Source: Acidobacteriota bacterium
GTDB taxonomy: Bacteria; Acidobacteriota; Blastocatellia; Pyrinomonadales; Pyrinomonadaceae
Reading direction: 5' to 3'
Assembly: GCA_003697135.1 (NCBI GenBank)
Contig: RFGC01000042.1
Coordinates: forward strand, 1-64,000
DNA: 64,000 nucleotides
Notes under the pieces: generated by a model
Seen by the model: only the letters and a program-made list of their open reading frames with translations
Told to the model about the DNA's origin: nothing
Databases searched by the model: none
Translations under genes and position numbers: made by a program
Shown: piece after piece, positions 1 through 4,815 of the stretch
How positions within the stretch are numbered: position 1 is the stretch's first letter
Layout: each line of letters starts with the position of its first letter

Positions 1-578
1 AAAAAATCTTCCGAAACCGAAATGAAAATATCTTGCTTGGGCAAAATCCAATCCCGATTCACTATCCCTCTCATACCCCGTAAACTTCTGCCTAACTGCG
101 TCAGCACCATAACCCAACTGCTCAGTCCTCTGTAGTGTGCGAATCTCCTCTCCAAACGGCATGAAGTCTCTCCTCGAATATACCTTCCCACTCTGCTCCG
201 TCAACACCCGTGGACTCCCCAAATGGTCACTCATCAAATAACTCACCTTCGCTTCTGTTGGCTGTGCAACTTGCGTCGAATACTCTGCTATCAACTTGCC
301 AAATGCATCATACACAAAGATTGTTGTTTCACCCGTCGCAGGCACTTCCTTCTTCACTCTCCGACCTTCGCCATCATAGTAATACCTCCCAACAACTCCA
401 TTTGATGCATCTCTCACCTCTACCTGTTTGTTCTCTCCATCGTAAATAAACCTCCTCCTCTGTGCATCTCTTGTGAGATTGCCTGTTGTATTGTGAAACT
501 TTGCCCCGATGCAACAAGATTCGTCGTCAGGTCAGTTTGCGGATTTGTCATAAAAGCAAATGGCACAACTATGTCGGT
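1..578 (-). pseudogene. RHS core fragment, frameshifted, runs off the left edge
   Basis: Read on the minus strand, bases 487 to 1 encode the end of an RHS/YD-repeat core: TGNLTRDAQ, then RFIYDGENKQVEVRD, GRYYYDGEGRR, SDHLGSPRVLTE, FMPFGEE, KFTGYERDSESGLDF and ARYFHFGFGRF, where the window ends. The variable tip that normally follows this core lies outside. Bases 578 to about 496 encode TNPQTDLTTNLVASGQSFT in a different frame. That is the usual residue pattern just before TGNLT, so one base appears to be missing near 488-497. The reading frame closes upstream at a TAA (579-581), and no N-terminal RHS or export domain is present. It is best read as an orphan or decaying RHS tip module on the same strand as the second copy at 1356-2892. 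Confidence 0.75.
59..487. repeat. Direct repeat, copy 1 (RHS core block)
   Basis: This block is nearly identical to 2209-2632 in the same orientation. It covers the RHS core from TGNLT down to KFTGYERD. Compared with copy 2 it has 5 extra bases near 393, where copy 2 has the deletion that breaks its frame. Similarity stops sharply at both ends, leaving unrelated flanks, as expected for recombination between shared RHS cores with different tips. Confidence 0.85.
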
Positions 579-903: not shown

Positions 904-917
904 CTATTTTTTAGGGC
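901..917. terminator. Weak hairpin at the end of the immunity-like gene
   Basis: GCCCTA and TAGGGC form a 6-bp stem around a five-base T loop. The minus-strand stop codon of the exported small protein (904-906) lies inside the hairpin. No long T tract follows in either direction, so terminator activity is only possible. Confidence 0.3.
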
Positions 918-1359
918 TTTCATCCTTGTTAACCTCGTTAACCTCAACGATTATCACAAAGCGGCCAAACTTCAAATAGTAAATATAAGTTACTTTCTCA
1001 TAACTTCTTTCCGGGTTGATATTCTCTGTCTCAAATGGCTTGTAGTCTACACCGATTTCCCAATCTGACTTAAAGCTATTCACAGGCACTTCGTCAAAGT
1101 ATAGGTCGTATTTGTCAGAGACAAAACGAACACTGACAAACTCATGCCTTTGAATTTCAAGTGGCACAATGAAACTGCTGTCGCACATCTCTGGCTCTAT
1201 AATTGCTCCGTCAACATACAAAAGAACTTTGAACTTTTCCTTAGTTGGCTTTGCATCAACCTCAAAGCTAAACTTCACCCTATTTTGCGCTGTGCTTTTA
1301 TCAGCAAACAGCGCAAAACAAAAAGCTAGTAGAACAACATTCAATAAATAAACTTTCAT
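904..1359 (-). CDS. Small exported protein, candidate immunity protein for the RHS tip
   Basis: This 151-residue protein has a clear N-terminal signal peptide (MKVYLLNVVLLAFCFALFADKS, likely cleaved near AQN). The mature part is soluble and beta-rich with many charged residues, including YDLYFDEVPV and YIYYLKFGRFVIIVEV. Its ATG overlaps the TGA of the upstream RHS tip gene (ATGA, 1356-1359), so translation is probably coupled. A small gene placed directly after an RHS variable tip is the standard position of the cognate immunity gene, and export would place it where a secreted or periplasmic toxin acts. No family was recognised, and the immunity role is inferred only from position, size and export signal. 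Confidence 0.6.
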   Translation of the reverse strand: MKVYLLNVVLLAFCFALFADKSTAQNRVKFSFEVDAKPTKEKFKVLLYVDGAIIEPEMCDSSFIVPLEIQRHEFVSVRFVSDKYDLYFDEVPVNSFKSDWEIGVDYKPFETENINPERSYEKVTYIYYLKFGRFVIIVEVNEVNKDESPKK

Positions 1360-2555
1360 CGTCGTCTCCTTGCTGTAATGGTGATGAACTTCTCAAGTGG
1401 GAAAGTCGCTCTGATACCTGTACCGTCGTAGATATAGACCGTTTTATTTCTTGCACCTACAACAATGTGCATTGTGTTCGGTAAAGCTGCGGCAATCTTT
1501 AAGTCAATGGCTGAGGGTTCTTGCCTAAAACTGATTACTTTTTGACTTCCGCCAATAGTGACAGTTCCTAGCGACGAATTGCTTCCAGTAACAATCTCGC
1601 CTTTTGGATGAACGTGCACCATAACAGTTATATTTGCCAGAATGCCTTCTTCTTTTGGATTGGCTGGAATGGTGGTATCTATGCTTGCCTCATCAGCAGT
1701 GCGCGGGTCAGAGTATGGACCTGAAGCAGCGACAACAATTTTCTCCTGCCATCCATCGAGCGATGGTCCTGCTATAAAGCCTTCCTCGTGAAAACCGCCT
1801 TGTTTATCATCTGCCGTTGGTTTATTGCTTCTCTCAACCGCCGCTCCAACCGCTTGTCTGACTAAAAGACTTGGTAATTCAATTTCTGATGAAATTGCGC
1901 TAGTTGGTGTTGTGCCACCCTTCTTCTCAGTCTTACGAATTTGCTCGACTTCTTTTTCGTCTGTTACAACGTAAAGCTTACCATCTTCTACGCCGTCCCA
2001 ACCTATGTATTCTCCATCTTGATTGTAGTAATCGCCAGGAATCATTCCGTTTGGGTCAGTGAATCGAAGCGGATTGTTGTAAGAATAGCTGTAACGATTC
2101 CAACTTTGCGGATGGAATGGATTTGCGCTTGCGGCTAACGGGTCCGGGCTTGTAAACCGCCCGTGATTGTATGCGAACATCCTTGCTTGAGTAAAGTCTA
2201 GACCTGATTCAACGTCTCTTTCATACCCCGTAAACTTCTGCCTAACCGTATCACCACCATAACCCAACTGCTCAGTCCTTTGAGGCGTGCGAATCTCCTC
2301 TCCAAACGGCATGAAATCTCGCCTCGAATATACCTTCCCACTCTGCTCCGTCAACACCCGTGGACTTCCTAAATGGTCACTCGTCAAATAACTCACCTTC
2401 GCTTCTGACGACGGTGCAACTTGCGTCGAATACTCTGCTGTCAACTTGCCAAATGCATCATACACAAAGATTGTTGTTTCACCCGTCGCAGGCACTTCCT
2501 TCTTCACTCTCCGACCTTCTCCATCATAGTAATACCTTCCAACAAATTGATGCAT
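1356..2555 (-). CDS. RHS core end with variable C-terminal tip (JAMM/MPN-like), 5'-truncated
   Basis: Residues 6-170 form the RHS core end: GRYYYDGEGRR, SDHLGSPRVL, FMPFGEEIRT, KFTGYERDVESG, GRFTSPDPL and the closing NRYSYSYNNPLRFTDPNG. After the core-ending DPNG the sequence is unrelated, as in polymorphic-toxin tips. Residues 171-205 (GDYYNQDGEYIGWDG) are a linker common in RHS tips. The last ~150 residues contain VHVHP (His 314 and 316), EPSAID (Ser348, Asp351) and acidic residues near 257-258. This fits the E...HxHP...SxxD metal-binding pattern of JAB/MPN or DUF4329-type domains. The apparent start (MHQF) is only where the frame opens after a 5-bp deletion; upstream RHS sequence continues in another frame at 2524-2892. 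Whether the tip is still made is uncertain. Confidence 0.7.
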   Translation of the reverse strand: MHQFVGRYYYDGEGRRVKKEVPATGETTIFVYDAFGKLTAEYSTQVAPSSEAKVSYLTSDHLGSPRVLTEQSGKVYSRRDFMPFGEEIRTPQRTEQLGYGGDTVRQKFTGYERDVESGLDFTQARMFAYNHGRFTSPDPLAASANPFHPQSWNRYSYSYNNPLRFTDPNGMIPGDYYNQDGEYIGWDGVEDGKLYVVTDEKEVEQIRKTEKKGGTTPTSAISSEIELPSLLVRQAVGAAVERSNKPTADDKQGGFHEEGFIAGPSLDGWQEKIVVAASGPYSDPRTADEASIDTTIPANPKEEGILANITVMVHVHPKGEIVTGSNSSLGTVTIGGSQKVISFRQEPSAIDLKIAAALPNTMHIVVGARNKTVYIYDGTGIRATFPLEKFITITARRRR

Positions 2556-2632
2556 CTCTCACCTCTACCTGTTTGTTCTCACCATCATAAATAAACCTCC
2601 TCCCTTGCGCATCTCTCGTGAGATTACCTGTT
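2209..2632. repeat. Direct repeat, copy 2 (RHS core block)
   Basis: This is the second copy of the block at 59-487, five bases shorter. The missing bases lie near 2543-2548, between the codons for VEVRDAS and GRYYYDGEG, and shift the minus-strand frame. Confidence 0.85.
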
Positions 2633-2892
2633 TCATCATACTCATACCCTTGCCCATCCATGAACCTATTATTCAAAGGATTAACCATAGGATTGCAAAC
2701 TGCAAGGGTGAAGTTTGAGAAAATCATGGGCGCTTTTCTTAGAAAATCCCTGAAAATTTCAAGGTTCTTGAGAAGTTGTTTGTGCGAATGCAATAAGTCG
2801 TTTCGCATTAGAGAAAGCATCAGCGCATTGTGCTGGGTTGTGTTTATGCTGCTGGTTGTTAGCAGGGAAATTGTTTGACTCCAAAAAAGCAA
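2524..2892 (-). pseudogene. Upstream part of the second RHS fragment, frameshifted
   Basis: From about 2697 downwards the minus strand encodes NPMVNPLNNRF, GYEYDETGNLTRDAQGRR and FIYDGENKQVEVRDAS, a typical RHS/YD repeat. After DAS the frame runs into SICWKVLL and stops, whereas copy 1 continues NGVVGRYYYDGEG. The difference is a 5-bp deletion. Upstream of about 2697 the frame stays open to 2892, but its residues (MLFWSQTISLLTTSS and so on) do not look like RHS, so the RHS homology is truncated there. The fragment faces away from the FG-GAP gene that begins at 2941. Confidence 0.65.
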
Positions 2893-2940: not shown

Positions 2941-4815
2941 ATGAGATTTCTGGTTTTGTTGATTTTGTTCACGCTTTTTGAAGTCAGCTTAGGAGCTACC
3001 AGAACGTGGAGTGGCGCGGGCAGTGACAACAATTGGCAAACACCTGCAAATTGGGTCGGTGGGGTTGCCCCATCGGCAGGCGATGACTTAATCTTTCCCG
3101 CTAACGCCTCGCAATTTTCAACCAACAACAATTTCTTCTTCCTAACAACCTTTCGCTCCATAACTTTTGAAGGCGGTAACTACACCATAAGCGGGAATCC
3201 ATTTAGGCTCACAAACGGCTTAATCGTAAACGGCGGTTCGCAAACAATAAACACAGGAATAACCCTTGCATCTTCTCAAACATTCTACTTTGCACAATCA
3301 ACACTCACAACTCTCGGTTTGTTGTCTTTGGGAAATTTCGGATTGACAATAGACGGAAGCGGAAACGTAGTGATAGGGATAATTTCGGGTTCCGGCACTA
3401 TTACTAAATCAGGTCTTGGAGCTGTTGTTTTAGCAGGTGCGAATGGGTTCAACGGTGCTATAAACCATAATGGCGGTATTTTCATAGTAGATGCAAGCAT
3501 TCCGAATAGTCCCGTCACCGTTAACAGCGGGAGTCTCGGCGGGGAGTTCGGTTTCAGTGGTTTTGGTGGAACCGGAACTGTCGGAGCGGTGAACGTTGTT
3601 CGGGGAATTATAAGTGCAGGAACTTTCAACTCACCTACGGGAATCTTGAACACAGGAAATCTTGCGTTTACGTCTGATGGCAATTATCTTTGTAAAATTG
3701 CCGGCACCGTTGCAGGAAGCGGTCATGATCAAATAAACGTTACAGGCACGGTAACGCTTAATAATGCAAGGCTAATCCCGCTTCCACTTAATAACTTTCG
3801 TCCTCCTATCGGCAGTGCATTTATAATCTTGAGAAACGATGGCACTGATCCTGTAAGCGGAAATTTCCTTAACGCGCCTGAAGGGGCAACGTTTGCAGGT
3901 GCTTTGAATACGGCTTTTCGCATAACTTATCAAGGTGGTGACGGCAACGACATAGCCATTACGCGCATTAACAAAGCAATCTCAGATTTCGACGGTGACG
4001 GACGTTCGGATATAGCTGTTTTCAGGCCTTCAAGCGGCACGTGGTATGGGATTTTGTCGAGTAACAACTCATTTTTTGCTAATCAATTCGGAGTCTCGGG
4101 TGATATTCCTGCACCGGCAGATTTCGATGGGGATAATCGCGCTGATATTACGGTATTTCGACCTTCAAACGGCACTTGGTATTTGTTGAGAAGCTCGAAT
4201 AATCTTTTCAGTGCGGTGCAATTTGGCGCGGCAGGCGACTATCCTACGCCCGAAGACTTTGACGGCGATGGAATGAGCGACATCGGGGTTTTCCGTCCTT
4301 CCGATGGCGCATGGTATAGCCTTAGAAGTCTTACCAACCAACTCTCTGTTCAACAATTCGGCTCAGTAAACGATAAACCGGTTTTCGGAGATTTCGACGG
4401 CGACGGGATTGCTGACATCGCCGTATTTAGAAATGACGGGAATTGGTATATCTTGAAAAGTTCAGATAGCACCTTCTACGGGGTTCAATTCGGTATTGGC
4501 GGCGATTTGCCGGTTCCGGCGGATTACGATGGCGACGAACGCACCGACATAGCTGTTTTTCGACCTTCAGATAATCCTTCAGATGCCGATTTCTTCTATT
4601 TGCAAAGTAGCGATAATTCTTTAAGAGCAATCTCTTTCGGTTCGATTGGTGACGTTCCCGTTGTTGCCGATTATGATGGTGACGGGCGCAGTGACATCGG
4701 CGTTTTTCGTCCGACAACCGGAACATGGTATCTTTTGCGAAGTTCAGCAGGCTTTACTTCGGTAAATTTTGGTCTAAATGGAGATATTCCAATACCGAGC
4801 GCTTTTGTCAGGTAA
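2941..4815 (+). CDS. Large exported protein: autotransporter-type beta-strand region plus FG-GAP/VCBS repeats
   Basis: This 624-residue protein starts with a signal peptide (MRFLVLLILFTLFEVSLG). Residues ~20-345 are Gly/Asn/Thr-rich, with WSGAGSDNNWQTPANW and ITKSGLGAVVLAGANGFNG, as in autotransporter-associated beta-strand repeats. Residues ~350-624 hold six tandem FG-GAP-like repeats of the form DFDGDGxSDIAVFRPSxGTWY, each with a DxDxDxxxD calcium-binding loop. Together they should make a beta-propeller. A strong Shine-Dalgarno (GGGAGGG, 2927-2933) sets the start, and a clean terminator follows at 4862-4889. The role is unknown; a cell-surface or secreted structural or adhesive protein is plausible. 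This repeat type is abundant in Blastocatellia-like genomes, which supports the lineage guess. Confidence 0.75.
   Translation: MRFLVLLILFTLFEVSLGATRTWSGAGSDNNWQTPANWVGGVAPSAGDDLIFPANASQFSTNNNFFFLTTFRSITFEGGNYTISGNPFRLTNGLIVNGGSQTINTGITLASSQTFYFAQSTLTTLGLLSLGNFGLTIDGSGNVVIGIISGSGTITKSGLGAVVLAGANGFNGAINHNGGIFIVDASIPNSPVTVNSGSLGGEFGFSGFGGTGTVGAVNVVRGIISAGTFNSPTGILNTGNLAFTSDGNYLCKIAGTVAGSGHDQINVTGTVTLNNARLIPLPLNNFRPPIGSAFIILRNDGTDPVSGNFLNAPEGATFAGALNTAFRITYQGGDGNDIAITRINKAISDFDGDGRSDIAVFRPSSGTWYGILSSNNSFFANQFGVSGDIPAPADFDGDNRADITVFRPSNGTWYLLRSSNNLFSAVQFGAAGDYPTPEDFDGDGMSDIGVFRPSDGAWYSLRSLTNQLSVQQFGSVNDKPVFGDFDGDGIADIAVFRNDGNWYILKSSDSTFYGVQFGIGGDLPVPADYDGDERTDIAVFRPSDNPSDADFFYLQSSDNSLRAISFGSIGDVPVVADYDGDGRSDIGVFRPTTGTWYLLRSSAGFTSVNFGLNGDIPIPSAFVR

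Follow-up and report, generated by a model that had tools for sequence, protein, structure and literature searches.

The analysed window, a stretch of 64,000 nucleotides from an acidobacterium of the family Pyrinomonadaceae, contained a cassette that was probably an orphan RHS toxin/immunity module, with a JAMM-type metallo-hydrolase toxin that would act at the periplasm or envelope and an exported protein that would block it. JAMM-like tips were paired with exported proteins of at least four mutually unrelated families, which suggested the periplasm or the envelope as the site of action. The features of the cassette and of its surroundings were as follows.

1-487, minus strand: second RHS core fragment, which continued past the contig edge (the window began at base 1 of contig C19)
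904-1359, minus strand: candidate immunity gene of 151 aa, with a signal peptide at about residues 1-25 and then a predicted beta-rich domain
1356-1359, minus strand: 4-base ATGA overlap between the stop codon of the tip (TGA, 1356-1358) and the start of the small gene (1359)
1356-2555, minus strand: ORF of 399 aa, comprising an RHS core fragment and a C-terminal tip (TIGR03696, 1.3e-15; RHS_repeat PF05593, 4e-5)
1359-1874, minus strand: JAMM-like domain, tip residues 55-226 (AlphaFold, Foldseek, hhalign)
1503-1517, minus strand: PSAID, tip residues 174-178 (SAID 175-178), at the beginning of a helix, with the candidate Ser and Asp ligand
1605-1616, minus strand: HVHP, tip residues 141-144, candidate metal ligands at a strand end
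1782-1790, minus strand: HEE, tip residues 83-85, with the candidate JAMM glutamate at a strand start, invariant in 13/13 sequences
1875-2036, minus strand: linker module (GDYYNQDGEYIGWDG..), found in most relatives and elsewhere without the JAMM part
2046-2555, minus strand: RHS core portion with DPNG at its end (ORF residues 167-170, sequence ...RFTDPNG)
2541-2550, minus strand: 5-base deletion (near 2546) relative to the sister copy, from the alignment with window 32-487
2556-2703, minus strand: remnant of upstream RHS sequence, out of frame with the ORF (VCNPMVNPLNNRFMDGQGYEYDETGNLTRDAQGRRFIYDGENKQVEVRDAS); the RHS similarity ended at about 2700 in the alignment to contig C45 (locus L017)

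The genes were ordered on the minus strand as RHS core, tip and small gene. It had originally been predicted that an RHS core ending in DPNG was followed by an unrelated tip with HxHP and SxxD motifs, and that a small exported gene started inside the stop codon of this tip; all of this was confirmed. Namely, RHS/YD repeats and a core ending in DPxG were followed by a variable tip of 226 residues that started with GDYY directly after RFTDPNG, which was the build of an RHS toxin C-terminal module, and the small gene lay directly downstream, in the position of the immunity gene of such modules. DPNG is a conserved border of RHS toxin tips, and a 4-base ATGA overlap is typical of coupled genes. 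The product of the small gene had a clear signal peptide (MKVYLLNVVLLAFCFALFADKSTAQ) and lacked a lipobox. On the opposite strand, the cassette adjoined a gene (2941-4815, plus strand) for a 624-aa exported protein with FG-GAP repeats.

A point overlooked in the original prediction was that the 399-aa frame represented a 5'-truncated RHS fragment. Its core was 90% identical at the DNA level to the sister fragment at window 32-487, and the 5-base deletion cut the frame off from the upstream RHS frame. The same deletion placed the ATG at 2555 in frame with the tip, and since this codon was preceded by a Shine-Dalgarno-like GAGGTGAG, direct translation was possible. A core fragment without its 5' part and with other RHS sequence nearby is the anatomy of the orphan rhs-CT/I modules; judged by its sequence, the cassette was a putative module of this kind, namely a displaced RHS gene end kept among other RHS fragments. 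The assembly contained no intact parent RHS gene of the matching type, and the end of the contig accounted for the fact that a main RHS gene was not found beside the cassette. The assembly break at the start of contig C19 probably fell on RHS repeats.

The same genome held further RHS sequences. On contig C45, a cassette of similar build (locus L017, 1282-3060, minus strand) had an orphan-like arrangement. Its core end was frameshifted, its tip was weakly similar to NlpC/P60 (E 0.019), and an overlapping gene encoded a small protein with a single membrane helix; the sequence marked this cassette as a putative envelope-directed toxin pair of a different kind. Additionally, a long RHS gene on contig C22 was of another type; it ran over more than 1580 aa to the end of the contig, where it was still open, and contained an internal dockerin-like DGQVDDSDLL repeat.

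Neither a promoter nor an export signal was evident for the window cassette, and it may be silent. It was possible, if somewhat doubtful, that this copy was a decaying silent remnant, serving as a recombination reservoir or as retained immunity, while the family functioned as toxin and immunity elsewhere. The 5'-truncation, the 5-base frameshift, the RHS repeats at the contig edge and the lack of an intact parent gene in the assembly agreed with such decay, as did a decayed tip with a kept small gene in another genome (G032, see below), indicating that the tip can go first. However, the reading frames of the tip and of its partner were both intact, all motif residues were present in the window copy, and the Shine-Dalgarno-like sequence stood ahead of the start codon at 2555. 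Moreover, the orphan rhs-CT/rhsI modules of Salmonella, which are built alike, had no initiation or export signals and were activated by recombining with the main RHS gene, so that such orphans can be redeployed (PMC3967940).

The reading of the tip as a candidate JAMM enzyme depended on several kinds of evidence. HxHP and SxxD within one protein were, taken alone, a weak indication. The complete E...H-x-H...S-x-x-D pattern was followed through an alignment of 13 rows (the window tip and 12 relatives from Acidobacteriota and Chitinophaga). The residues H83, E84, E85, H143, Gly146 (G146), Q172, P174, S175 and D178 were invariant in 13/13, so that HEE and PSxxD were complete throughout, and H141 was kept in 12/13 with Tyr in the one exception. 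The HxH was mostly HVH or HIH, one tip (L022) had HSHN at the HxHP position, and the loop between HxHP and PSxxD varied from about 10 to 55 residues. The exceptional sequence (L057, 1501-1944, plus strand; the tip of genome G179) read YVHP and thus missed one predicted metal ligand, and its exported partner was intact. The predicted metal site would consist of E84 or E85, H141, H143 and D178 together with S175.

An AlphaFold model built from eight sequences was confident (pLDDT 84.6, pTM 0.83) and placed E84/E85 at a strand start, HVHP at a strand end and SAID at a helix start. This is the order of strands and helices found in JAMM enzymes. In the Foldseek comparison with the PDB, AMSH-LP was at the top (E 0.027, probability 0.94), followed by STAMBPL1 (0.93) and Sst2, while RadC, Prp8 Jab1 and BRISC were lower among a few others; in the viral model library the top matches were RadC, JAB and MPN proteins. 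Since the Foldseek E-values were weak (best 0.012-0.027, with TM of about 0.3-0.4), the fold could be called only at the superfamily level. A profile search of the PDB sequences ranked the Mov34/MPN protein 2kcq first with a non-significant E-value of 0.72, and this match was collinear with the tip profile over HSHP and PSATD. When the tip profile was aligned by hhalign to a profile of Prok-JAB proteins from the same order, the E-value was 3e-5 over HxHP..PSxxD (5e-5 with 13 rows); an unrelated profile used as a control gave 0.18. Each of these lines was modest singly, and in combination they made the predicted assignment to the JAMM/MPN superfamily secure. Thus, the JAMM fold that had been proposed from the motifs, with structure prediction named as the way to check it, held up in the confident model, in Foldseek matches that were mainly JAMM, MPN and RadC proteins, and in the controlled profile match to Prok-JAB.

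The tip represented an undescribed family. It had no significant match in Pfam, NCBIfam, PHROG or PADLOC, and single-sequence searches of Pfam, NCBIfam and the PDB returned nothing useful; matches to YrbL (E 0.2) and to designed Ig proteins (E 0.02) were dismissed because they covered only the last strands. Homologues were found in four Pyrinomonadaceae genomes and in a genome from the second family of the class (genome G146), in other Acidobacteriota (G241, G332, G179, G272 and two contigs labelled Acidiferrales and Terriglobia), and also in Chitinophaga oryziterrae, so that the family spanned two phyla. Its distribution was sparse, with matches in 9/162 genomes of the class, some of them to the linker alone, and the linker module was also present in other RHS genes that lacked the JAMM part. 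Most of the tips were carried at the end of RHS proteins, no RHS carrier being visible for three (L023, L024 and G179), and one copy (G100) was shortened by another insertion. On the Terriglobia contig (L024, 3730-6426, plus strand) the tip stood at the end of an ORF of 899 aa, followed by a TonB_C-like exported protein; a phage-structural reading of this carrier, which had no RHS, Pfam or PHROG match, was rejected. A search of plasmids and viral contigs for a mobile source of the cassette gave nothing convincing.

The genes that followed the tips provided the evidence for immunity. In 12/13 cases the next gene encoded a small exported protein, and in 7/12 it overlapped the frame of the tip by 1-4 bases. 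By a crude signal-peptide rule, 11/12 partners were exported compared to 14/60 other ORFs of the window (Fisher p=1.4e-5, an optimistic value to be taken as a guide, given the background from one window, the related loci and the crude rule), and the twelfth partner, from Chitinophaga, had a signal peptide by eye. The original prediction had regarded position and coupling as signs of a toxin/immunity pair and had proposed to look for co-occurrence of the two proteins in other genomes. Both ideas were strengthened: besides this constant position, homologues of the window partner stood beside tips of other genera, families and orders. In genome G146, from the second family of the class, the partner was 41% identical to the window partner and also had an ATGA overlap; another homologue lay beside the tip in G076 (BLASTP E 8e-14), one more in G046, a truncated copy in G051, and a distant one, recognised by eye, in G272, a distant member of the phylum.

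The remaining partners were of other kinds. Those in G241, G332, G179 and L024 were TonB_C-like exported proteins, and those of G049 and Chitinophaga belonged to two further exported families. If immunity has to operate outside the cytoplasm, this position should be filled by exported proteins even where they are unrelated to each other, and their presence at 12/13 tips, in at least four families, supported both the immunity role and an envelope site of action. No fold family was claimed for the small protein, the Foldseek matches of which were scattered beta-sandwich proteins.

Homologues of the small protein also occurred without a tip in at least five genomes, namely G002, G111, G076 (contig C65), G045 and G061, the last being a fusion (L048, 4368-5177, plus strand) in which a domain like the window small protein was joined behind another secreted domain. 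In one more genome (G032; L049, 4776-5190, minus strand), a decayed tip, interrupted by stop codons and with HVHP changed to HVHL, directly preceded an intact small gene, and an RHS fragment lay downstream. The match of this decayed tip was weak alone (tblastn E 2e-4, with values down to 0.002 for shuffled queries when the search was widened), and its position and GRKR ending agreed with those of the other tips. The expectation that the small protein would not occur apart from tips and RHS loci was thus only partly upheld: lone homologues did exist far from RHS genes, and at least one copy followed a decayed tip. The lone copies may be orphan immunity genes or members of a wider family from which the immunity was drawn. 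They would also suit the view that the small protein belonged to a general secreted family and stood downstream of the tip by chance with no role in immunity, a view that we found quite improbable. Against it, the protein was coupled to tips in different genera, in a second family within the class and, judged by eye, in G272, often with overlapping frames, and where it was absent another exported small gene filled the slot. Moreover, immunity genes that stand alone are common in such systems (PMC10539506).

We propose that the tip, once joined to a full RHS carrier, would be released into a neighbouring cell, where, as a candidate metallo-hydrolase, it would most likely hydrolyse a periplasmic or envelope substrate; the bond cut would probably be a peptide or isopeptide bond. 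The small protein would be exported by Sec to the periplasm of the producer and would bind and block the toxin there. The orphan could be put back into use if it recombined with a main RHS gene.

JAB/JAMM toxin tips became known in 2012, and a role as cytoplasmic nucleases was suggested for them on indirect grounds. Zhang et al. 2012, who described Tox-JAB-1 and Tox-JAB-2, argued that JAB toxins may be nucleases since the ubiquitin-tail tunnel was absent (PMC3482391). Following this argument, the JAMM-fold tip could be a cytoplasmic toxin, a nuclease as proposed for RadC, which the small protein would intercept during its transit through the periplasm. We considered this unlikely. RadC was indeed among the Foldseek matches, but the best structural matches were AMSH peptidases, and a cytoplasmic toxin would be expected to have cytoplasmic immunity proteins, whereas all recognisable partners, from at least four unrelated families, were exported. 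The neighbours at four Tox-JAB-1 loci that we retrieved also looked exported and were mostly lipoprotein-like. It may therefore be a general property of JAB toxins that their immunity proteins are exported, which would favour an envelope target.

Some partners were similar to the C-terminal domain of TonB and might be decoys of the target. On this ground we raise, as a long shot, the idea that the whole group of JAMM-fold RHS toxins acts enzymatically in the periplasm, perhaps by cutting a TonB/TolA-like envelope protein; if true, it would overturn the published guess of cytoplasmic-nuclease JAB toxins. The new tip family makes the target of JAB toxins a directly testable question. It also adds an unannotated candidate toxin/immunity family to the Acidobacteriota, the host being a soil-type acidobacterium, in a phylum whose weapons are, to our knowledge, little studied.

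Among the known systems, the orphan rhs-CT/rhsI modules of Salmonella were similar in that a 5'-truncated displaced RHS end and its immunity gene lay beside other RHS sequence (PMC3967940), but the Salmonella toxin was unrelated to the window tip. Prok-JAB or bacterial Mov34-MPN proteins (PF14464; 2kcq) and AMSH-type deubiquitinases shared HxHP...PSxxD followed by a helix and a strand. The Prok-JAB model gave no hmmscan match for the tip, although the profile-profile comparison linked both, and the new tips differed in the loop of about 10-55 residues, the HEE motif and the RHS carrier. Prok-JABs that stand alone are enzymes of the cytoplasm.

Tox-JAB-2, or DUF4329 (PF14220), likewise forms JAB-type tips on polymorphic toxins, RHS toxins among them. 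Its pattern is E, H[ST]H, S and D, whereas HVH or HIH prevailed in the new tips, and its listed immunity protein is NTF2-like. DUF4329 had been suggested for the window tip, and this suggestion failed: there was no Pfam match, and the 9 scanned members gave none to PF14220 at E<=10.

Tox-JAB-1 (PF15659) with its partner Imm65 came closest: this JAB/JAMM tip also terminates RHS proteins, has HxH and, further downstream, S and D, and is followed by a small immunity protein with a signal peptide. It was reported from Bacteroidetes only and with an NxxxE motif, and Imm65 had a signal peptide and a lipobox (PMC3482391). In contrast, the window tip family had HEE, and Gly took the place of the Asn of NxxxE, four residues before E84, in most members. 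Membership in Tox-JAB-1 was rejected, with no model match among 9 members and an hhalign probability of 1% to four PF15659 members; the partners of the new tips were not Imm65, and that of the window had no lipobox. JAB-type polymorphic toxins, one of them with exported immunity (Imm65), were thus already known, and the tip family described here was new.
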